Assembly: GCA_949126835.1 (NCBI GenBank)
Contig: CASBPS010000100.1
Location: 62,001-126,000, forward strand
Source of the DNA: Anisus vortex
Taxonomy: Eukaryota > Mollusca > Gastropoda > Planorbidae
DNA: 64,000 nt
Direction of reading: 5' to 3'
Shown in pieces: positions 3,001 through 58,382 of the stretch; positions within the stretch are counted from its first letter, which is position 1; each line of letters begins with the position of its first letter. Below the pieces are notes generated by a model, which had not been told where the DNA came from, ran no database searches, and saw only the letters and a program-made list of their open reading frames with translations. A program made the translations under genes and the position numbers.

Positions 3001-3982
3001 CATTTTGATAATTAAATGCTTGAAATCAATATTTAGAAGCATATATTTTGTTGCTTTTTACCTACTGCAAGTTTTTATTGAAAACATCTGTTCTAAGTTT
3101 TTTTAAAGAATTTAAATAGAGATTTTTAAAAATATAATGTAATCGAACATTCCTTAAGTTATTACTATTATACATTTAATATCAGTTTTAAATTACATTG
3201 GGACAATAATAATTTTATTATTAGTTTCTTGGTATCATATTTTTAAACAGAAGATATTTATTACACAAAAAAATAAACTGAAATGATCAATACGTTTTAA
3301 GTTGTTGTTTTTTATTCAGATGTTTAAGCGTATTATACTATGAATGTCTAGTTATTTAAATGTTTTAGAATTAAAATACAATATTGTCTATACCTTCAGT
3401 CTGTCTTCTGGGAAGTTATGGCTCTAATTGTTCACAAGAATGTAGTGACCAATGTATTGAAAGCCACGAGTGTGATCCAGTAAATGGAACTTGTTATAAT
3501 GGATGTAAAGATGGTTACTCGGGCTCAAATTGTATTTACAGTAAGATTATAACAGTGTTAATGTTTTAAAGATTTTATATAGAAATAACATAATAATAAT
3601 TGTTCTACTGTTTGAAGCATTTTTTTTTAGAAACACATTTTCTGAAATTAAGGGTAAAATTAAACATTTACTAATTATTCGTTTTACTTAGATTACAATT
3701 TTAAATAACTTGATTCCCCCAGAACATTGGCAAACAAATCAAGTTTTTCCAGTTTCAACTTCTGTTTCCATTGGATTAGTTAGTAGCTTGACAATTGCCC
3801 TAGTTTTGTTTCTTGTCTTGTATGTGAGGCGAAGACATTTCAGAAAACAGAGAAAAACTGAAACAGAATTACAGAACAAGCAAGAAAATATATCTTTCAC
3901 TGACAGCTCCAGGAGTACAACTGAGACCTGTGACTCACTAATTCTACAGGATACTATCAACTTATATCAACTGGTTAAATAG
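1..3982 (+). CDS. Gene A: EGF-repeat single-pass membrane receptor, 3' part
   Basis: Exons read from sequence: 1-10 (end only), 591-731, 1033-1173, 1344-1484, 1862-2002, 2174-2314, 2487-2627, 2798-2938, 3400-3540 and 3723-3982 (stop TAG 3980-3982). Each internal exon is 141 nt, begins after CAG, ends before GTAAG, and is in phase 1 on both sides. Each encodes one 47-residue EGF-like domain that starts CPLGSYG and carries the spacing C..C..C..C..C..GC..G.TGSNC. The last exon has about 16 juxtamembrane residues, a membrane helix (IALVLFLVLYV), a basic stop-transfer stretch RRRHFRKQRK and a roughly 50-residue Ser/Thr-rich tail without a kinase or phosphatase domain. The architecture fits MEGF10/11-like receptors or the ectodomain of molluscan MEGF-type receptor phosphatases. 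A role in recognition or adhesion is inference. All exons seen are open. The 5' end lies outside the window. Confidence 0.85.
591..2938 (+). repeat. Tandem EGF-exon duplication array (seven near-identical exon-intron units)
   Basis: Exon starts are spaced 442, 311, 518, 312, 313 and 311 bp apart. Two unit lengths (about 312 and 442 bp) therefore alternate irregularly, the longer having about 130 bp of extra intron. The 518-bp unit is explained by a 73-bp miniature element plus a 4-bp TTAA duplication in a 441-bp unit. Introns are nearly as similar as exons (shared TTTTATATATTATCAG acceptors and GACTGTAAG donors), which indicates recent unequal crossing-over of whole exon-intron units. Confidence 0.9.
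1629..1701. mobile_element. 73-bp piggyBac-like miniature element in a gene A intron
   Basis: A 73-bp insert is flanked by TTAA at 1625-1628 and 1702-1705. It is nearly identical to the 73-bp insert at 9450-9522, which reads CCCTTTCCG...GTAAGGG between TTAAs. A TTAA duplication with CCCTT termini is the signature of the piggyBac superfamily. There is no coding capacity. This copy has a degraded left end (CACTTCCCG). Confidence 0.75.
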
Positions 3983-9869: not shown

Positions 9870-9875
9870 TACATG
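9870..9875. repeat. Target-site duplication TACATG, left
   Basis: An exact 6-bp match to 24836-24841, immediately outside the inverted termini of the palindromic element. Confidence 0.9.
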
Positions 9876-9929
9876 AGTAGTGTAGTAGGGTCGTTTCAGG
9901 TATCATTTGTGGAGCCGCTCCACAGCTCC

Positions 9930-10040
9930 TCAGTTGACCTTTGACCTTTGACCCGGAAGTGACCTTTGACCCGGAAGTGACCCCTACCGGAAGTGACCTC
10001 TACCGGAAGTGACGTCATCCAAGATGGTGTCTTGTCGTGT
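9930..10040 (+). promoter_or_regulatory. Arm-tip cluster of ETS, CRE, YY1-like and TGACCT half-site motifs (left)
   Basis: Iterated TGACCTTTGACC and CCGGAAGTGACC units end in ACCGGAAGTGACGTCATCC and then AAGATGG. CCGGAAGT is the ETS core, TGACGTCA the full CRE, TGACCT a nuclear-receptor half-site and CCAAGATGG a YY1-like core. At least four GGAAGTGAC repeats lie in about 75 bp. The motifs are seen directly; promoter or enhancer activity is inferred. Confidence 0.6.
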
Positions 10041-10299
10041 TGTTACACGAGGGTTTTTTAATTCAGGGTAATACATTTTGTCAGCGGTTCTAAAATTATT
10101 TTTTTCCCGTTGTCTTACAATGATTGATTTTCCCATTGTCTTACAATGATTGACACATGTCATATTATTTCTCCCATTGTTTTATAATGGTCTTTATAAG
10201 GTTCAGCGGTTCTAAAATTTTATAATTATTTGATAATATTAATTAATTGGTTACTTGTATAGTGTTCTTAATAATTTTCAATAGTAAAATAAGTTTATT

Positions 10300-11050
10300 G
10301 TGTTTTTTGACCTAATTAGCATCTCTTAATCGATAATTGTCTTGTAAGGGTCATTTTTAATTACTTGGATGCAGTAATTGTCTTAATTTATTCTTAACTA
10401 ATTAACTAATTATTATTTTATAGTCATAATTAGCATGTAAAAGGGCGTTTTTAATTTTTAAGGGGCCGTAATTATTACATTTTAATCAATAATTGTCTTG
10501 TAAGAGGCACATTTACTTATTGGGATAGAGTAATTGTATACTTAATTAATTAACTAATTATAATTTTTTTAACCATAATTAGCGTGTAAAAGGGCGTTTA
10601 TTAATTACTAAGGGGCCGTAATTATCACATTTTAATCAATAATTCTCTAATAACGTGCCTTATTAATAACTTGGACACAGTAATTTTCTTAATTTTATCT
10701 TAACTAATTAACTAATTTTACTTTTTATAACCATAATTAAGTTGTAAAAGGGCGTTTTTAATTACTAAGGGGCCGTAATTACCACTAATTATTTATTTTG
10801 ATACATTTTTACTTACTGGGGTACAGTAATTTTCTTAATTGTATACTTTATTAATTAACTAATTATAATTTTTTTAACATTAATTAGCTTGTAAAGGGGC
10901 GTTTATTAATTACAAAGGGACCGTAATTATTACTAGATAGACCACATTTTATATACTTTTTTACATTTTTACTTACTTGGAGGCAGTATTTTTCTTTATT
11001 CTTAATTAATTATCTAATTATAGTTTTTAGTCATAATTACTATTTTATAA
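10300..11050. repeat. AT-rich tandem repeats, left arm
   Basis: Four to five diverged units of about 120-155 bp, each with AAGGGCGTTT, an AGGGGCCGTAATTA block and a TTAATTAACTAATTA block. No coding content. Confidence 0.75.
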
Positions 11051-12430
11051 TTTTCTTTTAAACATAATTATTTTTAATTTGCATTGATAATCAATGTTTT
11101 GAAAGTCTAAACATATATCCTTTAACATTTTTAGAACCCCTGAGGCGCTTATTCACATCGCTGTCTAACTTTTACCTGAGCAGCTGTTTGTTTTTATCGC
11201 TCAGCGCGTCTTTTAATGACTTTTTCAGCTGTTGTGGAAATTCTTTTGTAGTGCTGTTCTCGCTCGCGCTGTTAATGACTTTTTCATCTGTTGAGAAAAG
11301 TCTTTTGATCTCGCTTCACTCGCTTTTTAATGACCTGGTGTGAAAAAGAGATAAAACTGCCCTTTCAAAGCCTGCTATGGGAGATAATTCAAGTAGCACT
11401 AAACGTTTTTTTTTTCTTTACAACTTACGTTTCCCATGATATTTTTTTTTTGTTTTTATCATTTGCATTAGTTTTGGGGGTATTTTTTCTTTGTATTTCG
11501 AGTATTCGTTTTTTTAATATATCTCTTTTCAATTTAAAGAATTTAAATTGTTTAATCGTTAAATGCAATGTGTGACTTACTATAACACCATTATTTTTAT
11601 TTTTTTAAACTTATATTTTACAATTTAAACGATAAGTAAATACAATTTTTTACTTACTAAAACTAGTAATTTCTATATTTTATACGAAATTAATTAACGA
11701 ATTTTTTTTTTTTTTAAAGTCATACATATCTTGTAAGGCGAGTTTTTACTTATTAAGAGGCGTATATTTCTTTAATTAAGGCTTACATTATATAACTTTT
11801 GTTTAAATTCTTTAATAAGACACCCTTTTTATTTACGAACGTTTTACTTACATAGTTAACATTTGTATCTTTTAATTATTCTTTCAATTTTAATTGATAA
11901 TACATGTAAATACATTTTACTCAACTAGTTTAAAATTTTCCCTTTTAAACATACATATTTCAAATTTGAATTGATAATCATTGTTTTAAAAGCCTAAACA
12001 CTAAACATTTTAAGAGCTCCAGGGCAAAATTGAAAGTCTAGATGTTGTGAGAGTTCCCAAAGTACATTATTTTAGTGTATGCGTATTTTGAATGTGTATG
12101 TATGTGTATGCAAATAAGAGAGTTCTTTAAAGTTACTAAAATACTATACTACAATAGTTTATATATTTTGAATGTATAAATGTACAATAAGTGTCTCTTT
12201 ATCTATTAAAAGTCAGTTTGTTAAATGGTTGTATCTTTTAATTTTTGTCGTGTAATTTTTACTTAATAGGATTAAACATTTTAAAATTTAAGTAACTTAA
12301 GTCTTTTAAGTGGTGTCCAATATGGCGGGTCAGAAGGGGGCGGATCCAAGATGGCCGATCCGAGTGTTCCATGTGATTATTTGTGTGTAGTGTTACACGT
12401 GATTTTATCATCGTGGTTTAATTAAAGATA
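11051..12430. other. Non-coding arm sequence, left
   Basis: It holds a GC-richer patch at about 11140-11340 with repeated TTTTTAATGACTTTTTCA-like motifs. Further YY1/ETS-like words occur at about 12315-12360 (ATGGCGGGTC, CCAAGATGGCC). No gene recognised. Its mirror is about 22289-23660. Confidence 0.4.
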
Positions 12431-12790
12431 CCGGAAAACAAGATGGCGTCCGATGTACATGGCATACAAGGGCAGTAACCGTGTAATTAAATTTGTATTT
12501 TTTGTATTTTTTATTAACTTTATGGTTGTAGACAAGATGATGGAAGGGGTGTATTGAAGTTGTTGACTCCAATGTTCCACATGATGATGAACCGGAAGTA
12601 AGATGGCGTCCGATGTACATGGCATACAAGGGCAGTAACCGTGTAATTAAATTTGTATTTTTTGTATTTTTAATTAACTTTATGGTTGTAGACAAGATGA
12701 TGGAAGGGGTGTATTGAAGTTGTTGACTCCAATGTTCCACATGATGATGAACCGGAAGTAAGATGGCGTCCGATTTACGTGGCATACAAG
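12431..12790. repeat. About 160-bp tandem repeat with ETS plus YY1-like motif, left arm
   Basis: Unit starts at 12431, 12592 and 12752, each beginning CCGGAA(GT)AAGATGGCGTCC. Two full units and a partial third. The CCGGAAGTAAGATGGCG composite resembles ETS and YY1 sites of TATA-less promoters. Translations across the units are repeat artefacts. Confidence 0.75.
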
Positions 12791-12913
12791 GGCAGTAACC
12801 ATGTAAATACTTTTTTTAAACAGTAAAAAAAGAAAGTTTTAATTTTTTTTTAATTTTTATTTGCGTTCAAGTACATCAAACAGAGAATAAAACAACAACA
12901 ATATATAATATAA

Positions 12914-13625
12914 TTATAATATCCTATTCTCAGTGTTCAGGATTTGTAGAGCGAAAAGTGCACAAAGTGTCAAGATCCCAATGCCTGCAGCAGCACAGCA
13001 TAGGATTGTCTTAAGTGAGGGCCAAGAGCTGCCATTTTTATTCTCACCTCTACCAGATTTGAATTCCAAAAACCCTTCCTGTGTGAAGGAAAAGAAGATG
13101 GAGGCTAGTTTAATATACGTTTTTATATTTAACTTTCTATAGGATGATTTTTGTTTAAAGAGTGTCTTTGTTACTCTTGTAAACCTATTACTTACCCAGT
13201 TATTATGACTATTTAGCCAACTCGACAGATGTATAATAAGTTGTTAACCATTCTATAAGATTATCTACTAGGTGGTATTTCTTTAGTTGAAAACACCGAG
13301 CTGCAAATTGACCCGAAAAGTCAAACAACGCCACAATTCGTCCCCAATTTATATCCTCACAAAATATTTCTATAACGATCGATGCGAAAGTGTCATAAGC
13401 ATTGTCATCAGTTATGACTAGACCATCTATTAAGTTCTCAAATCTATTCTTAAATCGTTCTTCAAATTCATCTCCTAGTATTCTCATAGCATTTTGAGCA
13501 GAATTCGGAGTGTTGATAATACTTTCATGCCGACCATCGTTTCTCCAAGTATACCCATTGCATTGTAAACGATATTTTATGTAATCCACCGCAATGCTAC
13601 GCGTATTTTCATGTCCTATAGACAT
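12914..13625 (-). CDS. Bcl-2 family apoptosis regulator, left arm copy (two exons, apparent frameshift)
   Basis: Exon 1 runs 13625 to 13196 and exon 2 from 13078 to 12914 (minus strand), with a 117-nt GT..AG intron. Residues 8-27 match a BH4 motif (DYIKYRL...GYTW). Residues about 45-60 match BH3 (ILGDEFEERF), and residues about 92-110 match BH1 (NWGRIVALFDF). The frame opened by the ATG stops after 138 codons, just after the BH1-BH2 linker. The BH2-like Trp segment at the end of exon 1 and all of exon 2, which has a C-terminal hydrophobic anchor and a basic end, are in a different frame. Family knowledge: multidomain Bcl-2 proteins restrain mitochondrial cell death. The gene points outward, towards the element tip. 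Identical in the other arm, so the frame break predates or was copied with the duplication. Confidence 0.8.
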
Positions 13626-13629
13626 ATTA

Positions 13630-13929
13630 TTTTCAATAGAACTAATAAGAATTACAAAAAGAACCGTTTTACTAAACGAAAAACCATAACACTTTTACAA
13701 AACTGAATAAGGAAGACTACATAATTTTATAAAAATTTGCTGAATAGTGGAAAGAGACCACCATCTGACAAGCAAACATTCAACGAGCAGGTGTTAAACA
13801 GCTGCCCGCTGGGCGCTGACCAAGTTAACGACTTCCTGTCCAGATGTTATTGCACTTACCTGACCGTGAGAAAATCTAAAAGCTAACATTCCCAGGGTCA
13901 CGCCAACCCTAACCGTCAACAACGTTCCC
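13630..13929. other. Region upstream of the Bcl-2 gene, left arm
   Basis: About 300 bp of ordinary-composition sequence between the Bcl-2 start and the pyrimidine-rich repeats, presumably holding its promoter. The mirror is 20790-21089. No TATA box stands out. Confidence 0.35.
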
Positions 13930-14320
13930 ACTTTTTTTTTTTTGTCTTCTTCAATCTTTGCCTTTTTTTACTAACTTCTTATCTCTTTCTCGAAAAAATT
14001 TAAAGTACAATTTCTCAAACTTTCGATCTCTCCCGACAAACATTTTAAGTACACCTTTTCAAAATCTTTCTCTCTCAAAAAACTTTGTAGGACACCTTCT
14101 CAAACTGTCGATCTCTCCCGACAACATTTTAAGTTCACCTTCCCAAACTGTCGATATCTACCGACAACTTTTTAAAGTTCACCTTCCCAAAATCTCTCTC
14201 CCGACAAACTTTTTTAAGTTCACCTTCCCAAAATCTTTCTCTCTTGACAAACTTTTTTTAGTTAACCTTCCCAAAATCTTTCTCTCTTGACAAACTTTTT
14301 TAAGTTCACCTTCCCAAAAG

Positions 14321-14352
<32 letters not shown>

Positions 14353-15850
14353 ACAAACTTTTTAAAGGACAACTTTTCAAACTCGCAATCTCTCCCGACA
14401 ACTTTTTTAAGTTCACCTTCCCAAAATCTTTCTCTCTTGACAAACTTTTTTAAGTTCACCTTCCCAAAATCTTTTACAACCTCGACAAACTTTTTTAAGT
14501 TCACCTTCCCAAAATCTCTCTCTCTTGACAAACTTTTTTTAAGATCACCTTCCTAAAATCTCTCTCCAGATAAACTTTTAAAGCTCACCTTCCCAAACTG
14601 TCGATCTCTCCCGACAACTTTTCAAGTACAACTTTTCAAACTCTCGATCTCTCTTGACAAACTTTTTTAAAGATCACCTTCCTAAAATCTCTCTCCCGAC
14701 AAACTTTTAAAGCTCACCTTCCCAAACTGTCGATCTCTCCCGACAACTTTTCAAGTACAACTTTTCAAACTCTCGATCTCTCTTGACAAACTTTTTTAAG
14801 TTCACCTTCCCAAAATCTTTCACACTATCTTTCGCTCAAAAACACTTTTTCTTAAAAGCTTTCCCACTCTCGACAAACATTTTAGGTCACCACTCCATGG
14901 ACTTCGTTTTAACAGTAGCCATCTCTCTGTCTCCAACTCTTTCTCGCCCCATCTCTTCCTCTAACAAAACTTTAAGTTAAAACAACCTTAACATTTACAC
15001 ATTCCATCTTTCTGCCTTGTTCAATCTCTGTATCTCTTACTTCATTCTTCTCTCAAACTCTGTCTCTCTCTCTCTCTCTCTCTCTCTAAAAACGTTACGA
15101 TCAGCAAAGTCTTACACATATTCCACTTCACATCTTTCACTCTGTCTTTCTCTTTCCTGCGTGCCATCTTTTACTTGTTTCATTTTCAGTGACTTCTTTC
15201 CTTACTCTGTCAACACTTATTTCTCTCTTCGTCTCTTTTCGCTAACAAAACTTTATGTTAACCAACCTTAACATTTACACATTCCATCTTTCTGCCTTGT
15301 TCAATCAATTATTTAATACTTTACTCTTTCTTTAGTGCTCTCGCTAAAAGCAATTTATGCTCAGCAAACCCTAACACATTTCCACTTCACATCTTTCACT
15401 CTGTCTTTCTCTTTCCTGCGTGCCATCTTTCTTTTACTTGTCTCATTTTCAGTGACTTCTTTCCTTACTCTGTCAACACGTATTTCTCTCTTCGTCTCTT
15501 TTCGCTAACAAAACTTTATGTTAACCAACTTTAACATTTACACATTCCATCTTTCTGCCTTGTTCAATCAATTATTTAATACTTTACTCTTTCTTTAGAA
15601 CTCTCGCAAAAAGCAATTTATGCTCAGCAAACCCTAACACATTTTCCACTTCACATCTTTAACTCTGTCTTTCCTTTTCTTTTTCCTGCGTACCATCTTT
15701 TACGTACTCATTTTCTGTGACTCCTTTTCTTACACTGTCTCCAGAGCTTTCTCTGACAAAACTTTAAGTTACTCTAAGCATCTCTATTTCAACAGCGTTC
15801 CCTCTTTCTGCCTTGTTCAATCTCTACCTCCTTACTAACTTCTTCTCCTC
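13930..15850 (+). repeat. Pyrimidine-rich strand-asymmetric repeat tract, left arm
   Basis: At 13960-14840 about twenty diverged units of 40-50 bp carry TTCACCTTCCCAAAATC and CTCTCTTGACAAACTTTTT blocks, with a (CT)n run at about 14321-14349. At 15000-15800 three longer units (about 250 bp) carry CACTCTGTCTTTCTC and TGTCAACAC blocks, plus another (CT)n at 15063-15087. The plus strand is nearly purine-poor throughout. The tract separates the divergently transcribed Bcl-2 and 120-residue genes. Open frames across it (repeating KFTFPK or its antisense) are repeat translations, not genes. Confidence 0.85.
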
Positions 15851-15904
15851 TTTCTAAAATTGTCTTCCCTTTTATATTTTATAACGTGCAAATCATTTAG
15901 TACC

Positions 15905-16385
15905 ATGGATCCTAGGGGAAAACATCCCTTTACCGCTCGCATTGCTGGACCAGGCAATGTCGACAGTGGAATTGTATTAGAATGTGGTAGTATAGACTGT
16001 GATTTGTCTTCAATCATTGAGAAAATCAAAGGAGACATCGCTTGTGTTGTATTATTGAATGAAGATGAAATGCAGGTAAGATACTACTTATCTTATATAT
16101 TATAATCACTCCTTCCATATAAAGTATTAGTGCGTACTACTCTCATTCGTTTTAAAAACAATAATAATAATTTACTTTCGATGTCTTGTGTAGAAACTTG
16201 TGGAGGCGGATACTGAAGGGCTAGTTCAGAGCCTTGGGAGATCTACGAAAGTCATCAAATCTATGCAGGAATCTTGTCAGCGCCTAATTGAGGAGCAGGC
16301 AGACCTGAAAGCCGCCCTGGAGCTTGTTCGTTTTTACAACTTGGAAAATGCAATGCGTAATTGCATGACAAATGTTTACAAGTAG
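15905..16385 (+). CDS. Unknown 120-residue spliced gene, left arm copy
   Basis: Exon 1 is 15905-16075 (57 codons; donor CAG/GTAAGA) and exon 2 16194-16385 (stop TAG). The 118-nt intron is in phase 0, so the joined frame is open. The start is supported by TACCATGG context, a TATA-like TATATTTTATAA just upstream (about 15873-15884), and an AATAAA at 16423. The first 55 residues look globular, with GPGNVDSGIVLECGS and DIACVVLLNEDE. Residues about 65-110 are Glu/Lys/Leu-rich and predicted helical, probably a short coiled coil. No Cys pattern, signal peptide or membrane segment. I do not recognise the family. Conservation of the splice frame in both arms supports a real gene. It reads towards the loop. 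Confidence 0.7.
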
Positions 16386-16538
16386 ACGTTGCTAGCTTTA
16401 GAGTCTTAAATTATAAAAATTAAATAAAGGAAAAAAAATATTGGTGTTTGTTGTTTGTGTATGAAGGTTTTGAAAATAATGTTCTTGGAGATATAGCACA
16501 GGTCAGGTCAACTGACCCTAGTGCGAATTTGGGAAAAG

Positions 16539-18179
16539 TGGGGCAGAAGAAAAAATTTTTTTGTTTGTATTAGTTTGGGGCTGCTAGTCAATATTGTAAA
16601 GAGTTTTGTAAATCACTAGAATTAGTTTAATGGAATTGTGATAAGTTATTAGGATGTGTATTTATTATTATTAGCAATTACTACTATAAGTTGAATAGGG
16701 TGGTAAAAAAAAGGAATACTTTAAACTGAAGGTGTAGTGTTTTTAAATGTTTTGGACAGGACTAATTATAGAAGTATTATAAGGGTTTGAGTCAAGCAAG
16801 ATTGCCTAAGTGGGAAGGTATATTTGGGTGTTGTAGATATATGTTTTGGGTTGTGTTTTGGACAGGGATATCTATAATGGTTTTTTTTTAAGATTAGTGT
16901 TTTGGACAGAGCTATCAATAAAAGTATTAGAAGGTTTGGGTCAAGCTAGATTGCCTAAGTTGGAACATATATTTGGGTGTTGATGGTATGTGTTTTGTAA
17001 AGTTTGTGGTAGGACATGGATATCTATAAAGATAGATTATCAGAAATCTTCCATGACATCAGTCAAGCAAGATTTCCTAAGTGGGGAAATTCACTTGGGG
17101 GTTGTAGATATGTGTTTTGTAAAGTTGGTGTTAGGACGGGGATATCGATAAAGATAGACTATCAGAAATCTTCCATGACATCAGTCAAGCAAGATTTCCT
17201 AAGTGGGGAAATTCACTTGGGGGTTGCAGAAATGTGTTTTGTAAAGTTGGTGTTAGGACGGGGATATCGATAAAGATAGACTATCAGAAATCTTCCATGA
17301 CATCAGTCAAGCAAGATTTACTAAGTGGGGAAATTCACTTGGGGGTTGTAGAAATGTGTTTTGTAAAGTCTGTGGTAGGACGGGGATATCGATAAAGATA
17401 AACTATCAGAAATCTTCCATGACATCAGTCAAGCAAGATTTCCTAAGTGGGGAAATTCACTTGGGGGTTGTAGATATGTGTTTTGTAAAGTCTGTGGTAG
17501 GACGGGGATATCGATAAAGATAGACTATCAGAAATCTTCCATTACATCAGTCAAGCAAGATTTCCTAAGTGGGGAAATTTACTTGGGTGTTGTAGATATG
17601 TGTTTTGTAAAGTTGGTGTTAGGACAGGGATATCGATAAAAATATTCTAAGGATTTAAGTCGAGTAAGATTGTCTAATTTTAGGTTTTATTTTGGGTGGC
17701 GATGGTATATGGTAAGATTGACCAAGTTGGAAGGTATATTTGGGTGGCGATGGTATGTGTTGAGGTTTTGTAAGAGTAGTGTTGGGATATGTTTGTTCAC
17801 GGTAGAAAAAATCTGTCATGGCATGACTGTAGTCATAGAGGGCTGTTTCTCCTATTGGGTCATATAACAATTGTATGTGAACTTAGGAAAATAAAATTGT
17901 AGATCTATGTTAAAAGACCTAGGAAAAATAAACAGGTCTAAATTTCGACTACCTTGGCACTGGAATAATTTTGATATGTAATTGATTTAGGAGATATTTC
18001 TATAATAGGCCTGAGAAGGAAAGTAATGGGAATGACAAGGGTTATATAGGTGGTGAGTGGCATCATGTGTTACGAAAATGATTCCCACTACTATTAGTAA
18101 ATGTTGGTTAGGTAATTAAAATTTCCGTAGATAGTTTGTTAAAATTTAGACAGTAATAGTTAGGTAGAGCGAGGAGGGG
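16539..18179. repeat. Loop of the palindrome, made of tandem repeats
   Basis: Unique to the centre. Five copies of an exact 122-bp unit have GACATCAGTCAAGCAAG-type anchors at 17055, 17177, 17299, 17421 and 17543 (the last reads TACATC). They are flanked on both sides by more diverged relatives (about 16785-17000 and 17640-17760) sharing TCAAGCAAGATT.CCTAAGT and TTTTGTAAAGTT..TG. The strand is G/T-rich. A GATATCGATA box recurs in every unit. Open frames of up to 85 codons are repeat translations. A role as a replication or recombination site is speculation. Confidence 0.85.
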
Positions 18180-18333
18180 CTTTTCCCAAATTCGCACTAG
18201 GGTCAGTTGACCTTGACCTGTGCTATATCTCCAAGAACATTATTTTCAAAACCTTCATACACAAACAACAAACACCAATATTTTTTTTCCTTTATTTAAT
18301 TTTTATAATTTAAGACTCTAAAGCTAGCAACGT

Positions 18334-18814
18334 CTACTTGTAAACATTTGTCATGCAATTACGCATTGCATTTTCCAAGTTGTAAAAACGAACAAGCTCC
18401 AGGGCGGCTTTCAGGTCTGCCTGCTCCTCAATTAGGCGCTGACAAGATTCCTGCATAGATTTGATGACTTTCGTAGATCTCCCAAGGCTCTGAACTAGCC
18501 CTTCAGTATCCGCCTCCACAAGTTTCTACACAAGACATCGAAAGTAAATTATTATTATTGTTTTTAAAACGAATGAGAGTAGTACGCACTAATACTTTAT
18601 ATGGAAGGAGTGATTATAATATATAAGATAAGTAGTATCTTACCTGCATTTCATCTTCATTCAATAATACAACACAAGCGATGTCTCCTTTGATTTTCTC
18701 AATGATTGAAGACAAATCACAGTCTATACTACCACATTCTAATACAATTCCACTGTCGACATTGCCTGGTCCAGCAATGCGAGCGGTAAAGGGATGTTTC
18801 CCCCTAGGATCCAT
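18334..18814 (-). CDS. Unknown 120-residue spliced gene, right arm copy
   Basis: Exon 1 runs 18814 to 18644 and exon 2 from 18525 to 18334 on the minus strand. The encoded protein is the same as in the left copy. The one change noticed is in the upstream TATA-like stretch, which here reads TATGTTTTATAA (about 18836-18847, minus strand), so the two copies may differ in promoter strength. Confidence 0.7.
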
Positions 18815-18868
18815 GGTACTAAATGATTTGCACGTTATAAAACATAAAAGGGAAGACAATTTTAGAAA

Positions 18869-19626
18869 GAGGAGAAGAAGTTAGTAAGGAGGTAGAGATT
18901 GAACAAGGCAGAAAGAGGGAACGCTGTTGAAATAGAGATGCTTAGAGTAACTTAAAGTTTTGTCAGAGAAAGCTCTGGAGACATTGTAAGAAAAGTAGTC
19001 ACAGAAAATGAGTACGTAAAAGATGGTACGCAGGAAAAAGAAAAGGAAAGACAGAGTGAAAGATGTGAAGTGGAAAATGTGTTAGGGTTTGCTGAGCATA
19101 AATTGCTTTTAGCGAGAGTTCTAAAGAAAGAGTAAAGTATTAAATAATTGATTGAACAAGGCAGAAAGATGGAATGTGTAAATGTTAAAGTTGGTTAACA
19201 TAAAGTTTTGTTAGCGAAAAGAGACGAAGAGAGAAATACGTGTTGACAGAGTAAGGAAAGAAGTCACTGAAAATGAGACAAGTAAAAGATGGCACGCAGG
19301 AAAGAGAAAGACAGAGTGAAAGATGTGAAGTGGAAATGTGTTAGGGTTTGCTGAGCATAAATTGCTTTTAGCGAGAGCACTAAAGAAAGAGTAAAGTATT
19401 AAATAATTGATTGAACAAGGCAGAAAGATGGAATGTGTAAATGTTAAGGTTGGTTAACATAAAGTTTTGTTAGCGAAAAGAGACGAAGAGAGAAATAAGT
19501 GTTGACAGAGTAAGGAAAGAAGTCACTGAAAATGAAACAAGTAAAAGATGGCACGCAGGAAAGAGAAAGACAGAGTGAAAGATGTGAAGTGGAATATGTG
19601 TAAGACTTTGCTGATCGTAACGTTTT

Positions 19627-19661
<35 letters not shown>

Positions 19662-20366
19662 TTTGAGAGAAGAATGAAGTAAGAGATACAGAGATTGAAC
19701 AAGGCAGAAAGATGGAATGTGTAAATGTTAAGGTTGTTTTAACTTAAAGTTTTGTTAGAGGAAGAGAAGGGGCGAGAAAGAGTTGGAGACAGAGAGATGG
19801 CTACTGTTAAAACGAAGTCCATGGAGTGGTGACCTAAAATGTTTGTCGAGAGTGGGAAAGCTTTTAAGAAAAAGTGTTTTTGAGCGAAAGATAGTGTGAA
19901 AGATTTTGGGAAGGTGAACTTAAAAAAGTTTGTCAAGAGAGATCGAGAGTTTGAAAAGTTGTACTTGAAAAGTTGTCGGGAGAGATCGACAGTTTGGGAA
20001 GGTGAGCTTTAAAAGTTTGTCGGGAGAGAGATTTTAGGAAGGTGATCTTTAAAAAAGTTTGTCAAGAGAGATCGGGAGTTTGAAAAGTTGTACTTGAAAA
20101 GTTGTCGGGAGAGATCGACAGTTTGGGAAGGTGAGCTTTAAAAGTTTGTCTGGAGAGAGATTTTAGGAAGGTGATCTTAAAAAAAGTTTGTCAAGAGAGA
20201 GAGATTTTGGGAAGGTGAACTTAAAAAAGTTTGTCGAGGTTGTAAAAGATTTTGGGAAGGTGAACTTAAAAAAGTTTGTCAAGAGAGAAAGATTTTGGGA
20301 AGGTGAACTTAAAAAAGTTGTCGGGAGAGATTGCGAGTTTGAAAAGTTGTCCTTTAAAAAGTTTGT

Positions 20367-20400
<34 letters not shown>

Positions 20401-20789
20401 CTTTTGGGAAGGTGAACTTAAAAAAGTTTGTCAAGAGAGAAAGATTTTGGGAAGGTTAACTAAAAAAAGTTTGTCAAGAGAGAAAGATTTTGGGAAGGTG
20501 AACTTAAAAAAGTTTGTCGGGAGAGAGATTTTGGGAAGGTGAACTTTAAAAAGTTGTCGGTAGATATCGACAGTTTGGGAAGGTGAACTTAAAATGTTGT
20601 CGGGAGAGATCGACAGTCTGAGAAGGTGTCCTACAAAGTTTTTCGAGAGAGAAAGATTTTGAAAAGGTGTACTTAAAATGTTTGTCGGGAGAGATCGAAA
20701 GTTTGAGAAATTGTACTTTAAATTTTTTCGAGAAAGAGATAAGAAGTTAGTAAAAAAAGGCAAAGATTGAAGAAGACAAAAAAAAAAGT
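18869..20789 (-). repeat. Purine-rich mirror of the asymmetric repeat tract, right arm
   Basis: Inverted copy of 13930-15850, so the plus strand here is purine-rich ((GA)n at about 19630-19656 and 20370-20399). Same position between the two divergent genes. Confidence 0.85.
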
Positions 20790-21093
20790 GGGAACGTTGT
20801 TGACGGTTAGGGTTGGCGTGACCCTGGGAATGTTAGCTTTTAGATTTTCTCACGGTCAGGTAAGTGCAATAACATCTGGACAGGAAGTCGTTAACTTGGT
20901 CAGCGCCCAGCGGGCAGCTGTTTAACACCTGCTCGTTGAATGTTTGCTTGTCAGATGGTGGTCTCTTTCCACTATTCAGCAAATTTTTATAAAATTATGT
21001 AGTCTTCCTTATTCAGTTTTGTAAAAGTGTTATGGTTTTTCGTTTAGTAAAACGGTTCTTTTTGTAATTCTTATTAGTTCTATTGAAAATAAT

Positions 21094-21805
21094 ATGTCTA
21101 TAGGACATGAAAATACGCGTAGCATTGCGGTGGATTACATAAAATATCGTTTACAATGCAATGGGTATACTTGGAGAAACGATGGTCGGCATGAAAGTAT
21201 TATCAACACTCCGAATTCTGCTCAAAATGCTATGAGAATACTAGGAGATGAATTTGAAGAACGATTTAAGAATAGATTTGAGAACTTAATAGATGGTCTA
21301 GTCATAACTGATGACAATGCTTATGACACTTTCGCATCGATCGTTATAGAAATATTTTGTGAGGATATAAATTGGGGACGAATTGTGGCGTTGTTTGACT
21401 TTTCGGGTCAATTTGCAGCTCGGTGTTTTCAACTAAAGAAATACCACCTAGTAGATAATCTTATAGAATGGTTAACAACTTATTATACATCTGTCGAGTT
21501 GGCTAAATAGTCATAATAACTGGGTAAGTAATAGGTTTACAAGAGTAACAAAGACACTCTTTAAACAAAAATCATCCTATAGAAAGTTAAATATAAAAAC
21601 GTATATTAAACTAGCCTCCATCTTCTTTTCCTTCACACAGGAAGGGTTTTTGGAATTCAAATCTGGTAGAGGTGAGAATAAAAATGGCAGCTCTTGGCCC
21701 TCACTTAAGACAATCCTATGCTGTGCTGCTGCAGGCATTGGGATCTTGACACTTTGTGCACTTTTCGCTCTACAAATCCTGAACACTGAGAATAGGATAT
21801 TATAA
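21094..21805 (+). CDS. Bcl-2 family apoptosis regulator, right arm copy (two exons, apparent frameshift)
   Basis: Exon 1 is 21094-21523 (donor CTGG/GTAAGT at 21524), the intron 21524-21640, and exon 2 21641-21805 (stop TAA 21803-21805, AATAAA at 21858). BH4, BH3 and BH1 motifs are at the same residues as in the left copy. The 138-codon frame ends at 21510, 13 nt before the donor. The BH2-like tail of exon 1 and the exon 2 frame are mutually consistent but offset by one base from the BH4-BH3-BH1 frame. Exon 2 encodes a run of about 20 hydrophobic residues near the C-terminus (a tail anchor typical of the family). The ATG at 21094 is chosen because BH4 follows it directly. Either a frameshift has inactivated full-length synthesis, or a shortened BH2-less product is made. 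Confidence 0.82.
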
Positions 21806-21928
21806 TTATATTATATATTGTTGTTGTTTTATTCTCTGTTTGATGTACTTGAACGCAAATAAAAATTAAAAAAAAATTAAAACTTTCTTTTTTTACTGTT
21901 TAAAAAAAGTATTTACATGGTTACTGCC

Positions 21929-22288
21929 CTTGTATGCCACGTAAATCGGACGCCATCTTACTTCCGGTTCATCATCATGTGGAACATTGGAGTCAACAAC
22001 TTCAATACACCCCTTCCATCATCTTGTCTACAACCATAAAGTTAATTAAAAATACAAAAAATACAAATTTAATTACACGGTTACTGCCCTTGTATGCCAT
22101 GCACATCGGACGCCATCTTACTTCCGGTTCATCATCATGCGGAACATTGGAGTCAACAACTTCAATACACCCCTTCCATCATCTTGTCTACAACCATAAA
22201 GTTAATTAAAAATACAAAAAATACAAATTTAATTACACGGTTACTGCCCTTGTATGCCATGTACATCGGACGCCATCTTGTTTTCCGG
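21929..22288. repeat. About 160-bp tandem repeat, right arm
   Basis: Mirror of 12431-12790. It has at least two substitutions relative to the left arm, for example GCACATCGG here against the complement of GTACATCGG. Confidence 0.75.
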
Positions 22289-24670
22289 TATCTTTAATTA
22301 AACCACGATGATAAAATCACGTGTAACACTACACACAAATAATCACATGGAACACTCGGATCGGCCATCTTGGATCCGCCCCCTTCTGACCCGCCATATT
22401 GGACACCACTTAAAAGACTTAAGTTACTTAAATTTTAAAATGTTTAATCCTAATAAGTAAAAATTACACGACAAAAATTAAAAGATACAACCATTTAACA
22501 AACTGACTTTTAATAGATAAAGAGACACTTATTGTACATTTATACATTCAAAATATATAAACTATTGTAGTATAGTATTTTAGTAACTTTAAAGAACTCT
22601 CTTATTTGCATACACATACATACACATTCAAAATACGCATACACTAAAATAATGTACTTTGGGAACTATCACAACATCTAGACTTTCAATTTTGCCCTGG
22701 AGCTCTTAAAATGTTTAGTGTTTAGGCTTTTAAAACAATGATTATCAATTCAAATTTGAAATATGTATGTTTAAAAGGGAAAATTTTAAACTAGTTGAGT
22801 AAAATGTATTTACATGTATTATCAATTAAAATTGAAAGAATAATTAAAATATACAAATGTTAACTATGTAAGTAAAACGTTCGTAAATAAAAAGGGTGTC
22901 TTATTAAAGAATTTAAACAAAAGTTATATAATGTAAGCCTTAATTAAAGAAATATACGCCTCTTAATAAGTAAAAACTCGCCTTACAAGATATGTATGAC
23001 TTTAAAAAAAAAAAAAATTCGTTAATTAATTTCGTATAAAATATAGAAATTACTAGTTTTAGTAAGTAAAAAATTGTATTTACTTATCGTTTAAATTGTA
23101 AAATATAAGTTTAAAAAAATAAAAATAATGGTGTTATAGTAAGTCACACATTGCATTTAACGATTAAACAATTTAAATTCTTTAAATTGAAAAGAGATAT
23201 ATTAAAAAAACGAATACTCGAAATACAAAGAAAAAATACCCCCAAAACTAATGCAAATGATAAAGACAAAAAAAAAATATCATGGGAAACGTAAGTTGTA
23301 AAGAAAAAAAAACGTTTAGTGCTACTTGAATTATCTCCCATAGCAGGCTTTGAAAGGGCAGTTTTATCTCTTTTTCACACCAGGTCATTAAAAAGCGAGT
23401 GAAGCGAGATCAAAAGACTTTTCTCAACAGATGAAAAAGTCATTAACAGCGCGAGCGAGAACAGCACTACAAAAGAATTTCCACAACAGCTGAAAAAGTC
23501 ATTAAAAGACGCGCTGAGCGATAAAAACAAACAGCTGCTCAGGTAAAAGTTAGACAGCGATGTGAATAAGCGCCTCAGGGGTTCTAAAAATGTTAAAGGA
23601 TATATGTTTAGACTTTCAAAACATTGATTATCAATGCAAATTAAAAATAATTATGTTTAAAAGAAAATTATAAAATAGTAATTATGACTAAAAACTATAA
23701 TTAGATAATTAATTAAGAATAAAGAAAAATACTGCCTCCAAGTAAGTAAAAATGTAAAAAAGTATATAAAATGTGGTCTATCTAGTAATAATTACGGTCC
23801 CTTTGTAATTAATAAACGCCCCTTTACAAGCTAATTAATGTTAAAAAAATTATAATTAGTTAATTAATAAAGTATACAATTAAGAAAATTACTGTACCCC
23901 AGTAAGTAAAAATGTATCAAAATAAATAATTAGTGGTAATTACGGCCCCTTAGTAATTAAAAACGCCCTTTTACAACTTAATTATGGTTATAAAAAGTAA
24001 AATTAGTTAATTAGTTAAGATAAAATTAAGAAAATTACTGTGTCCAAGTTATTAATAAGGCACGTTATTAGAGAATTATTGATTAAAATGTGATAATTAC
24101 GGCCCCTTAGTAATTAATAAACGCCCTTTTACACGCTAATTATGGTTAAAAAAATTATAATTAGTTAATTAATTAAGTATACAATTACTCTATCCCAATA
24201 AGTAAATGTGCCTCTTACAAGACAATTATTGATTAAAATGTAATAATTACGGCCCCTTAAAAATTAAAAACGCCCTTTTACATGCTAATTATGACTATAA
24301 AATAATAATTAGTTAATTAGTTAAGAATAAATTAAGACAATTACTGCATCCAAGTAATTAAAAATGACCCTTACAAGACAATTATCGATTAAAAGATGCT
24401 AATTAGGTCAAAAAACACAATAAACTTATTTTACTATTGAAAATTATTAAGAACACTATACAAGTAACCAATTAATTAATATTATCAAATAATTATAAAA
24501 TTTTAGAACCGCTGAACCTTATAAAGACCATTATAAAACAATGGGAGAAATAATATGACATGTGTCAATCATTGTAAGACAATGGGAAAATCAATCATTG
24601 TAAGACAATGGGAAAAAAATAATTTTAGAACCGCTGACAAAATGTATTACCCTGAATTAAAAAACCCTCG

Positions 24671-24781
24671 TGTAACAACACGACAAGACACCATCTTGGA
24701 TGACGTCACTTCCGGTAGAGGTCACTTCCGGTAGGGGTCACTTCCGGGTCAAAGGTCACTTCCGGGTCAAAGGTCAACTGA
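24671..24781 (-). promoter_or_regulatory. Arm-tip cluster of ETS, CRE and YY1-like motifs (right)
   Basis: Mirror copy of the left tip cluster. It lies about 250-360 bp upstream of the gene B start codon at 25031, so any enhancer activity would act next to the gene B promoter. Confidence 0.6.
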
Positions 24782-24835
24782 GGAGCTGTGGAGCGGCTCC
24801 ACAAATGATACCTGAAACGACCCTACTACACTACT

Positions 24836-24841
24836 TACATG
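24836..24841. repeat. Target-site duplication TACATG, right
   Basis: Matches 9870-9875 exactly. Confidence 0.9.
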
Positions 24842-42806: not shown

Positions 42807-43265
42807 TTGTTGAAAAAAATATGTTTAAATTCACTATACCTTCAGTTTGTCCACTGGGCAGTTATGGTGCTAATTGCTCACAAGAATGTAGTGACCAATG
42901 TTTTAAAAGCCGCAAGTGTGATCCTGTTAATGGAACTTGTTATAATAAATGTAAAGATGGTTACACTGGCTCAGGCTGCTTCAACAGTAAGATTTTCTTT
43001 TGCAAATACATTTGGCACCAACACTACATACAGATTGAAAAACTTGTTAAAACTAAAATATTGATTCTCATATATTTATTACACAAATTTAAACATTAAA
43101 AATATTCAATAACAATACACCGAATGAATTACTTTATTAATAAAATTTAGGAAAAACTGCTACAAAAAAATTACATAAACTTTGCACATAAATCTATAAA
43201 ATGTTGTTAACCATCCATTCTGGAAAAAAAGAATTTGTTATAAAATATAAAAATCTCTCTTTCTC

Positions 43266-43500: not shown

Positions 43501-44462
43501 AGTCCGACTGGTACTTTTTGTTACTCTTTCTACCAAACTGTAATTTAATGCAAAGTGAAGTTGGCTGGGTGTGATCAGGGACCATTGCTGTATAGATTGA
43601 TAGCAAAATATATTTTAACCTAATTCTGTAAACTTTTTCAAGCATTGACAACAATATATTACAAAAAAGCATCTCTTGCTGGCTTACATTTATCAATATA
43701 AATTAGGAACATGTGTGTGTCTAATTAAGAAAATGCATACATTTAGTTTGAGTATTTATTAAGACTATCAAGAACTAAACTGTTTTGGTCTTACAAAAAG
43801 TTTAAAGTAGTATAATTATGTTAGGCATAAACTGTATTACTATTATAAACTAAATAAAAATTGGTAATGATTTTTCTCAATGTCTATAAATATAATTTCT
43901 TTATTAACTGAATGCAGTCTACAACATATGATCAAAATCCTAATGTTTTTGAGTAGTTTATATATATTAAATCTAATTTGGAGAGATGCTCTGTAAAATT
44001 ACCGTTTTATTATATCATATCTTTATAATATGTTTCTAAGATTTGCAAAAAAAAAAACGAATATTTTTTTTCTGATAAAAATACAATTCTCTAAACTTTT
44101 AGTTTGTCCACTGGGAAGTTATGGTGCTAATTGCTCAGAAGAATGCAGTGATCAATGTCACGAAAGCCACAAATGTAATCCTGTTAATGGAGCTTGTTAT
44201 AATGGATGTAAAGATGGCTACATTGGCTCTAACTGTATTTATGGTAAGATTTTAGCTGTTTTTGATGTTAAAAAAGAGGATACATTTAATCAAAAGAACT
44301 TATTAGTACTTGTTGTTTACTTTGATAATTAGCTTGGAAGCAATATTTTAATTATTTTTTTTCTGATATGTAAATTAAGTGTTGAAATAACATTAAATAT
44401 TATTAAATCATTTGTTTTACTCTTTGTAGGATTAATAAAAGAAATAAATATATTTTCCTCAG

Positions 44463-45720: not shown

Positions 45721-46579
45721 ACTAACTAGCTATCTATGTCATATATCCATGTCCATACATTACTATTGCGTAGACTTACCTCTATCTGTGAATGAACATT
45801 AATAGTTTGTTTTTCCATCAGCTCATCTTCATTACAAGACATTATGTTTAATATTAATGAACCAGATTGGAACATGTCTTCTCCTTGAGATGACAAATAT
45901 TTGGCCACCATCTTATCACAAACATACACACATTAAATTAGATGTGAATTAGTTTATTGTGAACAGATTCTTAGAATATCAATATGGACTACATAATTTA
46001 AATCATCTATAATTGGTTTTCTTAGTCCTTGATTTATTGAATGGACAGCACAGTTATCAAAGTATCATGAATGTATTAAGTATTAGAAGAATGTTATATG
46101 CAATGTTTGAGACCGCTAAATTAAAAAAAAAATATTGTTGCAATTGTTTGCTTTAAAGTGTGTTTTTTTACATCATCTACTTCTACAATTTCCGTTTCCA
46201 AGGCAACAATCAGAGAAACATTGTGCTCTGTGACCAATCTCCAGAAATCAACAACAGTAGTTGGCATTTGTAGCTGAGTTAGTAGAAAACTATTAGTATT
46301 AGTAGTCTTAGTACAACTCTGAGAAATATAGAAATAAAAATAATCAATTTTTAAGCCCCAGCCCAGATTATTAATATGCTCTATATATTTGTTTAAAAAT
46401 ATCCTAATTAAGAAGTACTTAGTCCAAAAGAAATCGGCATTGATGTAATTTCCCTATTCTTCAGAATCACTTGTCAGAATTGGTCGGTTGGATTCATCTT
46501 TTGCAATTTAAAAATAAGAAAGACCAAATATTAATACACGTCAGGAATACACCAAGAACATTAGAACTTAATTATCTTA

Positions 46580-56274: not shown

Positions 56275-57582
56275 TTAATTCAATTCAATTCAATTCAATT
56301 TTATTCAGTCAATGCGTTTTACATCGAAAATATGTGATGTTGAATGTGACATCTACAAAAAAGAAAATTACATTACAATAATAGTAAGACACAACAATGA
56401 AAATTAATGAAAAAAAAAAAAAAAAACTATTATATCAATGTACATTATGATAATATGCAGAATATAAGGAAAATTATTACAATTATGATCTTATAAGACG
56501 CTTCTGTCTTGTATTATTGAACAGTTTAACTGCTTGCGGATAACAGCTGTTAACAAATCTGCTGCTACCTCTAAATGCTCGAAGGCGACGGCCATGTGGA
56601 AGAAATTCAAAATAGTGTCTCGAGGGGTGGGATTTATCCTTCATAATGTTAGTCATTTTACCTGTTAAGCGCTCTTGGTATAGTGTCTCTAACGACTTAA
56701 GGTTAGTGCCAATATTTTTTCTGCATTTTTGACAACTGATTCTAGCTTGTGTAAATTAACTACAGGTAGCCTGTCGAACCAAACTTCAATAGATCTTGTC
56801 AGTATGCTTTCAATAATAGCCCTATAGAAATTAGTCATTATCACTTTATTGACCCCACAGGACTTCAGCTTTCTAAGAAAATACATTCTCTGCCTTGCTT
56901 TCTTAAGGATATCAGTGCAGTTAATATCCCATGTTAGTTCATTGGATAAGACAGTGCCAAGAAACTTAAAATCATAAACTCGTTCTACATTGGATCCCTG
57001 TATAACCAAGGGTGGGGGTGGGGGTTCGTTTCTCCTAAAATCTATGATCATTTCTTTTGTCTTCGATACATTAAGGTGTAAGTTGTTCTGGCTACACCAG
57101 CTCACGATAGTGTCTTTTTGGCTACGATATGCGTGCTCATCTGCGTTTTTGATTAGGCCAGTAACCGTCGTATCATCGGCATATTTTATAACCAGACAGC
57201 CAGGCTGTTCTGCTTTACAGTCATAAGTGACAATAGAATATAGTTTAGGTGATAATGGACAACCTTGGGGGGTCCCAGTATTTAACGTTATACTGGTTGA
57301 CACATTGTTACTAATTTTAACCTCCTGTGGGCGTTCTAATAAGAAGTCTAAAATCCAGTTACATATGTTAACAGGAAAAGAGAGTTGGTAGTAAAGTTTG
57401 TTGTACAATTGTTGTGGTATAATGGTATTAAAAGCTGAGCTATAGTCTATAAATAATATTCTTGCATATGACTTGCTTGACTCTAAGTGGTATAATACCT
57501 CATGCACATTTATTGCAATAGCGTCATCTACTGATCTATTAGACCTGTACGCGAATTGAAAATCATCGAAGTCTGATGGTAG
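56275..57582 (-). pseudogene. CR1/jockey-group LINE, reverse transcriptase and 3' end
   Basis: The open frame 57507-56689 continues a frame that is open up to 57582. Core motifs: LFIDYSSAFNTI (palm, first Asp), GTPQGCPLSP, IKYADDTTVTG (YADD catalytic site) and LGTVLSNELTWD. A one-base loss in an A-run at about 56714-56719 shifts the frame shortly before the stop. The C-terminal SRHYFEFLPHGRR-type tail follows in another frame to about 56490. The 3' end is a short (AATTG)n-type tail at 56275-56303. The upstream part was separated by the LTR element and resumes at 63936. Confidence 0.9.
57579..57582. repeat. LTR-element target duplication GTAG, left
   Basis: Repeated at 63932-63935. Removing the LTR element and one GTAG restores continuity of the LINE frame (LNTLLPSDFDDF), which confirms both boundaries. 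Confidence 0.85.
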
Positions 57583-58208
57583 TGTTACGAATATCGGTCA
57601 TAAATGAATGACGTAGTAAGGCATTGACCTCTTAACAAGTGCGTATCAGAGTCCAAAGCGACCAAGGTTTGACCTTTATGCCCTGAGGGCAGTTTAAATA
57701 AAATAATTCGTTCAAATCCCGTGGAAATTGGAGGATAATTCTGGATCGTAGTAATTATAGAGAAAGAGGTTAAAATGCGTATTAAGACCCTGTAGAATCT
57801 TCGATGATAGTTTTCTTTGGAAAGTCCCGACCTCCTTAAAGTTAGTTCAGTTCAGAAGTTTGTCGAGTGAAGTCGCTATATTCATTTGTATATAATATGC
57901 CATTTATTTTGAAATACTTATGTTGCCATCAGTTGATGAAGTTTATTGATCGTTTATATTGAGTCTACAATTTAAATAAAATTGTTTATTCAACAACTGG
58001 AGTTGTTTGATCTATGATTGTTGAGAAAGGTGTTGAAGATAATTATCACGAATATAACTACATTGCTGCATAGACCTGTCAGTCAAAGAACCCCTAGCTT
58101 GGGCTACAGATTAGCAGAATCTAGAGACTTCTAATAAAGATACAACTATATTCATTGAATCCGATTTAACGAGTCGTAATAGTAATCACCATATAGAGGG
58201 CCATAAGA
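57583..58208 (+). repeat. 5' LTR
   Basis: Begins TGTTACGAATATCGG. Appears identical to 63303-63900 over about 598 bp, then differs in a short block and shares the last CCATAAGA. Contains AATAAA-like ATTTAAATAAAATTG near the middle and TAATAAAG near the end. No convincing tRNA primer site was identified immediately downstream. Confidence 0.85.
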
Positions 58209-58382
58209 GTTTGCGGGCTGCGTCCGATATAGTTGTATAGTGAAGCATATATTCAAGTTGTGTTGTGTTGTGTGTTGGAGCAGTGACCTACTGAGCAAGC
58301 CTAAGAACGCTGAAATTATTCTTCCGATTGCAAAAACGTAAGTTGGAAAAATTTACCACTTTATAAATCTCTTAACTAAAGA

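Follow-up and report, generated by a model that had tools for sequence, protein, structure and literature searches.

A 15-kb near-perfect palindrome with Maverick-type ends and two candidate apoptosis-related genes in each arm in the gastropod Anisus vortex

What kind of element leaves almost 15 kb of a snail genome as a single, nearly perfect palindrome flanked by a short duplication of its target? The question is raised by a stretch of 64,000 bp from Anisus vortex (assembly GCA_949126835.1, contig CASBPS010000100.1, positions 62,001 to 126,000), which is the window of this analysis and in which self-comparison reveals one dominant inverted repeat. Our preferred reading, in which we place roughly even confidence, is that this is a non-autonomous, helper-dependent, integrated element with Maverick ends, made palindromic in replication, whose arms each carry two captured genes related to apoptosis. 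The element totals 14,960 bp, and is composed as follows.

9870..9875, no strand: left target-site duplication, TACATG (self-BLAST, sequence)
9876..16538, plus strand: left arm, 6,663 bp, tip AGTAGTG (99.4% identity with the right arm)
16539..18179, no strand: asymmetric loop, 1,641 bp (arm similarity ends there)
18180..24835, minus strand: right arm, 6,656 bp, tip AGTAGTG on the minus strand (BLAST, MAFFT)
24836..24841, no strand: right target-site duplication, TACATG (self-BLAST, sequence)

Self-BLAST of the window pairs 9876-16538 with 24835-18180 over 6,670 columns at 99.385% identity, with 20 mismatches and 7 gap openings; MAFFT alignment of the arms gives 20 substitutions and 7 indels, and places an abrupt end of similarity at 16538/18180. 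Three of the seven indels (left-arm positions 14321, 15063 and 15426) lie inside arrays reported by Tandem Repeats Finder (TRF). Arms of 6.6 kb at 99.4% identity need no formal chance model. The sequence runs ...GCC-TACATG-AGTAGTG into the left end and CACTACT-TACATG-CAT... out of the right, so that exactly 6 bp are duplicated at the target site and the palindrome terminates precisely at AGTAGTG on both sides. No further copy of the 25-bp tip was found in the window beyond the two ends, even with up to 8 mismatches. The original prediction for this locus had described a 15-kb near-perfect palindrome with TACATG duplications, AGTAGTG ends and a 1.64-kb loop, and self-BLAST and MAFFT bear this out.

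The ends are the principal pointer to the identity of the element. AGTAGT...ACTACT together with a perfect 6-bp target-site duplication is the (AGT)2//(ACT)2 motif used for vertebrate Mavericks, and the AG..CT termini from which Polinton-type ends had been predicted thus extend to the full motif; the predicted size and fold-back shape, a palindrome of 14,960 bp, were likewise right. According to the available part of a survey of vertebrates, Mavericks were recovered by (AG)3//(CT)3 or (AGT)2//(ACT)2 ends and a perfect 6-bp target-site duplication (PMC8097293). The same part of that survey describes candidates that had been preselected by integrase and polymerase, of which only 628 of the 2,863 with inverted repeats qualified under its criteria. 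The likeness to Mavericks, or Polintons, consists of the (AGT)2//(ACT)2 ends, the exact 6-bp duplication and a length of about 15 kb.

The arms are not empty. Each contains a Bcl-2-like gene reading outwards, which matches PF00452 at 5.6e-20 in one arm and 5.7e-20 in the other (72.2 bits, cut-off 31.4).

12914..13078, minus strand: left Bcl-2-like gene, predicted exon 2, with the end of BH2 and a hydrophobic tail (sequence)
13079-13195, minus strand: left Bcl-2-like gene, predicted intron, GT..AG, 117 nt (sequence)
13196..13625, minus strand: left Bcl-2-like gene, predicted exon 1, frame broken between BH1 and BH2 (PF00452, 5.6e-20)
21094..21523, plus strand: right Bcl-2-like gene, predicted exon 1, same broken frame (PF00452, 5.7e-20)
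21524-21640, plus strand: right Bcl-2-like gene, predicted intron (sequence)
21641..21805, plus strand: right Bcl-2-like gene, predicted exon 2 (frames, sequence)

The closest solved structure to the Bcl-2-like protein, among the best 60 of 215 matches, is Bcl-xL. The predicted intron lies within the BH2 region, following a tryptophan, and vertebrate BCL2 genes have an intron at the same place in BH2. If that position holds, the gene would have been captured as DNA rather than as a retrocopy, because its intron lies at the vertebrate split position. The predicted intron is open in frame in both arms, as it is in P0001, a database relative 98% identical to the Bcl-2-like protein, and its retention would add 39 residues in BH2. 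The 15 database relatives include six from gastropods (Bulinus, Biomphalaria, Aplysia, two from Physella, and Elysia), two from Mytilus and one from a lemur; the Bcl-2-like protein of the element is 61-67% identical to P0002-P0005 (two JGI sequences, Bulinus and Biomphalaria). A 16-row tree pairs P0001 with the window sequence (100/100) and splits a 13-row set that contains them from Mytilus and the lemur (99/99); eight of the 13 inner branches are open, so the tree does not fix the order within. These matches point to a gastropod host, though horizontal transfer may lie behind the gastropod affinity of the gene. A search of NCBIfam with P0001 returned TIGR00865 bcl-2 alone, under its cut-off. 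P0003, which comes from a JGI contig of 52,444 bp, is Bcl-2-like and 65% identical, and lacks the intron read-through of P0001.

The second gene of each arm reads inwards, has two predicted exons with an AATAAA downstream, and encodes a predicted protein of 120 aa in an open frame that is identical in both arms.

15905..16075, plus strand: left DFF45-C-like gene, predicted exon 1 (PF09033 on spliced protein)
16076-16193, plus strand: left DFF45-C-like gene, predicted intron, GT..AG, 118 nt (sequence)
16194..16385, plus strand: left DFF45-C-like gene, predicted exon 2 and stop (PF09033 on spliced protein)
18334..18525, minus strand: right DFF45-C-like gene, predicted exon 2 and stop, same protein (arm comparison)
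18644..18814, minus strand: right DFF45-C-like gene, predicted exon 1, same protein (arm comparison)

When spliced, this inner protein matches PF09033, the DFF45/ICAD C-terminal domain (DFF-C), at 35.4 bits (cut-off 25, E 1.3e-8), while none of ten controls (nine shuffles and one reversed sequence) matched DFF-C, the best control match to any family being 18 bits. It is probable, on this profile evidence, that the inner gene is a relative of the DFF45/ICAD C-terminal domain. NCBIfam returned no match for the inner protein. The original prediction gave a sound account of the structure, and overlooked both of these cargo genes in each arm.

How might such an element arise? In protein-primed linear genomes, strand displacement leaves long single strands that are able to snap back. 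A helper Maverick or adintovirus-like element would supply a protein-primed polymerase and an integrase, both recognising the terminal sequence, and the palindrome would form during protein-primed strand-displacement replication. Either a displaced single strand would fold back and copy its end, or panhandle copying would extend the terminal repeat inwards. By either route one end and its neighbouring cargo genes would be copied into mirror image and the core left out, and the helper integrase would then insert the product, of near genome length, with a 6-bp duplication. Bcl-2 proteins of the Bcl-xL-like type restrain mitochondrial apoptosis, and DFF45 restrains the apoptotic DNase. The cargo may help cells to survive while the element replicates in them, the Bcl-2-like protein acting at the mitochondrion and the DFF45-C-like protein on the caspase-activated DNase, and the mirror duplication would provide two copies of each gene together with correction from arm to arm. 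These functions are suggested by homology. The cargo would thereby join a blocker of mitochondrial apoptosis to a protein related to the inhibitor of the apoptotic nuclease, and that nuclease could cut a DNA genome that has not integrated. Should the ends be those of a Maverick, the locus preserves, in natural and integrated form, a palindromic genome of the protein-primed kind, and it becomes testable whether linear double-stranded DNA virus-like elements yield helper-dependent snap-back satellites, as adeno-associated virus (AAV) does.

Several findings weigh against this reading and must be set beside it. The end motif and target-site duplication are a pointer to Mavericks and not proof, because the vertebrate survey applied the motif to candidates already chosen by integrase and polymerase. 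No Maverick polymerase B, integrase, capsid, ATPase or protease was found by Pfam in six frames, a scan which covered the left arm and loop with X at stops, the right arm being represented by its 161-aa open reading frame (ORF) and its 99.4% identity; at E<=1 the six frames of left arm and loop gave Bcl-2/BH4 matches only. The same scan missed the intron-split DFF-C gene, and small spliced remnants could thus escape it, but a polymerase or integrase of full size and free of introns would be very unlikely to, and the longest stop-to-stop frame in the element is at most 161 codons. The element differs from Mavericks and Polintons in this lack of detected PolB, integrase, ATPase, protease and capsid genes, in that inverted repeats make up nearly the whole of it, and in the predicted introns of its genes, in contrast to the intronless ORFs of intact vertebrate Mavericks as given in the portion of the literature available. 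Its tip and subterminal sequence were unmatched in IMG/VR, PHROGs phage families gave no matches in the three plus-strand frames of six, the first 525 bp gave none against phage records, and no RNA genes were found. The element is therefore not classifiable as a Maverick: it has Maverick-type ends, and was moved by something else, if at all. As no Maverick gene was found, the helper stays inferred, mobilisation by Maverick enzymes is suggested by the ends alone, and the "genome that lost its core" of the original prediction likewise stays conjectural; of its Polinton/adintovirus reading the ends, duplication, size and shape stood, and no parent element was found.

The cargo has adverse points of its own. 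The Bcl-2-like frame is broken identically, between BH1 and BH2, in both arms, and this common break either predates the mirror duplication or spread by arm-to-arm copying. The frame of P0001 is open, intron included, and intact relatives of the gene therefore exist. No match was found in IMG/VR with the Bcl-2 piece, with P0003 or with an alignment of relatives (11 of the 15), nor was any relative of the inner protein found there. The DFF-C assignment comes from a single profile, of which positions 28-97 of 165 only are covered; taken by exon, PF09033 matches exon 2 alone at 13.4 bits and exon 1 alone not at all, and the inner protein also matches the coiled-coil profile CC2-LZ weakly (E 0.098). 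A PDB search with this protein gave 10 matches at E<=10, none of them DFF45 and the best at E 0.042, and no full-length DFF45 relative was present among 55 longer candidates. The DFF45-C fold is a helix bundle, and the structure model of exon 2 alone is one long confident helix, which says little about the fold either way. Finally, P0001 and P0016, the latter a relative of the inner gene, are ENA sequences that could represent the same locus in another individual or species.

These relatives bear on whether the element belongs to a family. P0001 comprises 6 member sequences and 1 contig, and P0016 comprises 1 member sequence and 8 contigs; relatives of both genes on other contigs hint at a family. 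The window differs from P0016 at 2 of 57 exon-1 residues compared with 6 of 27 residues read into the intron (Fisher p 0.012), a contrast which comes from one pair, with a small count, and from a test conceived after the data were seen, and which points to constraint on the inner exon-1 protein. One bolder extension of our reading, which is possible and which we hold tentatively, is a self-perpetuating gastropod lineage of palindromic Maverick satellites, in which snap-back genomes would form a stable, multiplying family, replicated and integrated by helper Mavericks and kept for mirrored Bcl-2 and DFF45/ICAD-derived genes that spare the host cell and its DNA. The competing account, which we consider rather unlikely, is of a one-off defective Maverick or adintovirus snap-back genome that integrated once and is decaying, its genes mere passengers that lay nearest one parental end. 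Such an accident would leave the same end motif and target-site duplication, agrees with the broken Bcl-2-like frame, and would have a length near the 15-20 kb that the original prediction gives for Polintons; moreover, the related database contigs may come from ordinary Mavericks, or from this same locus elsewhere. Anti-apoptotic homologs are also reported in adintoviruses: the accessible part of a preprint describes both integrase and anti-apoptotic homologs in mammal-associated adintoviruses (PMC11071296). Against a single accident stand the relatives of both genes on other contigs, which suggest a propagating family, and the apparent constraint on the exon-1 protein in its single comparison, neither of which is decisive.

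A fold-back transposon of a cut-and-paste superfamily, similar to Galileo, its long terminal repeats enlarged by taking in internal DNA and tandem repeats, and moved by a transposase acting in trans, would account for the shape differently, and we regard it as doubtful. The terminal inverted repeats (TIRs) of Galileo recruit internal sequence, and the available text describes copy 112 of Drosophila as 9,021 bp long and made up of nothing but its TIRs (4,246 and 4,680 bp) and their direct tandem repeats (PMC4168063). Our element resembles such a copy in its very long inverted repeats and in the tandem repeats inside them, in which its arms are likewise rich, and this likeness, as far as that text extends, counts against a Maverick origin; recruitment of internal DNA into terminal repeats, as in Galileo, could be an alternative route to the same shape. 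In contrast to the 6-bp duplication and AGTAGT ends seen here, Galileo has a target-site duplication of 7-8 bp and a P-superfamily transposase, with apoptosis genes unmentioned in the available text of PMC4168063, and Ginger elements are given a 4-bp duplication and TGTNR ends in the part available of PMC2836005. No transposase was found by Pfam in six frames of the left arm and loop, and the comparison of duplication lengths covered Galileo and Ginger.

Much less plausible is a host ampliconic palindrome of the sex-chromosome type, that is, a gene-converted inverted duplication with no mobile element involved. Host-like genes with predicted introns, a short spacer and nearly identical arms would fit such a structure, but neither the exact duplication of 6 bp that flanks the arms nor the placing of a Maverick end motif precisely at the palindrome ends does so. 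Inverted duplications are also a familiar class of assembly and library artefact, but a chimeric palindromic read is scarcely credible here, and an assembly artefact unlikely, because the outer flanks differ, the loop is not common to the arms, 27 differences are scattered along the arms, and an exact target-site duplication is present.

For the preferred reading of a helper-dependent, Maverick-ended palindrome, one parallel is offered by the snap-back genomes of AAV, which are documented with symmetric or asymmetric loops and for which the authors propose a role in virus regulation, in the part of the report available (PMC8235507). As there described, the likeness lies in a self-complementary subgenome with a symmetric or asymmetric loop and dependence on a helper. 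AAV differs in being a parvovirus with its own replication proteins, and its snap-back genomes are neither integrated nor flanked by target-site duplications. Apoptosis-related cargo in invertebrate mobile elements is not unprecedented, because a BCL2-like motif is described in the giant Gypsy-like Burro retrotransposons of planarians in the available text of PMC6431247; Burro shares with our element this motif in an invertebrate mobile element, and differs in that it encodes the polyprotein of a long terminal repeat retrotransposon and in that DFF45 is unmentioned in that text. No report of a palindromic Maverick was found in the literature among the titles and starts of abstracts listed, and the accessible part of PMC10294476 contains no palindrome or foldback terms. 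A literature search found no paper joining adintovirus and Bcl-2, and narrow searches of open-licence PMC found no virus-encoded ICAD/DFF45 homolog, by title and abstract start, and no captured DFFA in a transposon.

The remainder of the element is rich in repeats and terminal sites, most of them present in mirror copies.

9953..10017, plus strand: left terminal cluster, four CCGGAAGT and one TGACGTCA (site search)
10384..10930, plus strand: AT-rich 150-bp repeats near the left end (TRF)
12440..12806, plus strand: 2.3 copies of a 160-bp repeat in tandem, containing two CCGGAAGT sites and lying downstream of the Bcl-2-like gene (TRF)
13984..14818, plus strand: pyrimidine-rich tandem repeats of 43/128 bp, lying between the left arm's two divergent genes (TRF)
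15101..15739, plus strand: 263-bp tandem repeat, left arm (TRF)
16940..17644, no strand: 122-bp tandem repeat, 5.8 copies, in the loop (TRF)
18986..19614, minus strand: mirror copy of the 263-bp repeat, right arm (TRF)
19893..20756, minus strand: mirror copy of the 43/128-bp repeats, right arm (TRF)
21913..22279, minus strand: mirror copy of the 160-bp repeat (TRF, site count)
23788..24361, minus strand: AT-rich 147-bp repeats near the right end, mirror (TRF)
24701..24765, minus strand: right terminal cluster, mirror copy (site search)

We take CCGGAAGT and TGACGTCA to be putative ETS and CRE sites. All 12 of the CCGGAAGT sites in the window lie inside the element, and dinucleotide shuffles of the window gave a mean of 0.43 sites and a maximum of 3. 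A hairpin at the tip was no more stable than those of shuffled sequences (z -0.15). In each arm the inner end (16479-16538) shows a short inverted resemblance to the outer subterminal sequence (9876-9985). This resemblance exceeds that of 300 of 300 random arm pieces and of 1,999 of 2,000 shuffles, while 3 of 8,424 other pieces of the window score as high; with significance at the borderline, it is a weak hint that the inner arm end may be a degenerate copy of the outer end.

Outside the element, the right end of the window contains two ORFs that we assign, from their domain matches, to retroelement genes. On the plus strand, 58380-61130 is an ORF of 916 aa with a SCAN domain (1.5e-9) and weak zinc-finger or zinc-knuckle matches below cut-off, and near it on the minus strand, 56689-57597 is a reverse transcriptase ORF with a tail labelled ALKBH8_N. 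A protein-tyrosine phosphatase fragment at 46124-46453 on the minus strand (PF00102, 1.8e-8) is the sole above-cut-off match among 10 flank ORFs, and is possibly an exon of a host gene. Satellite-like tandem repeats of about 310 bp and 440 bp occupy 315-2944, and related pieces lie at 3396-3548, 42828-42973 and 44085-44251.

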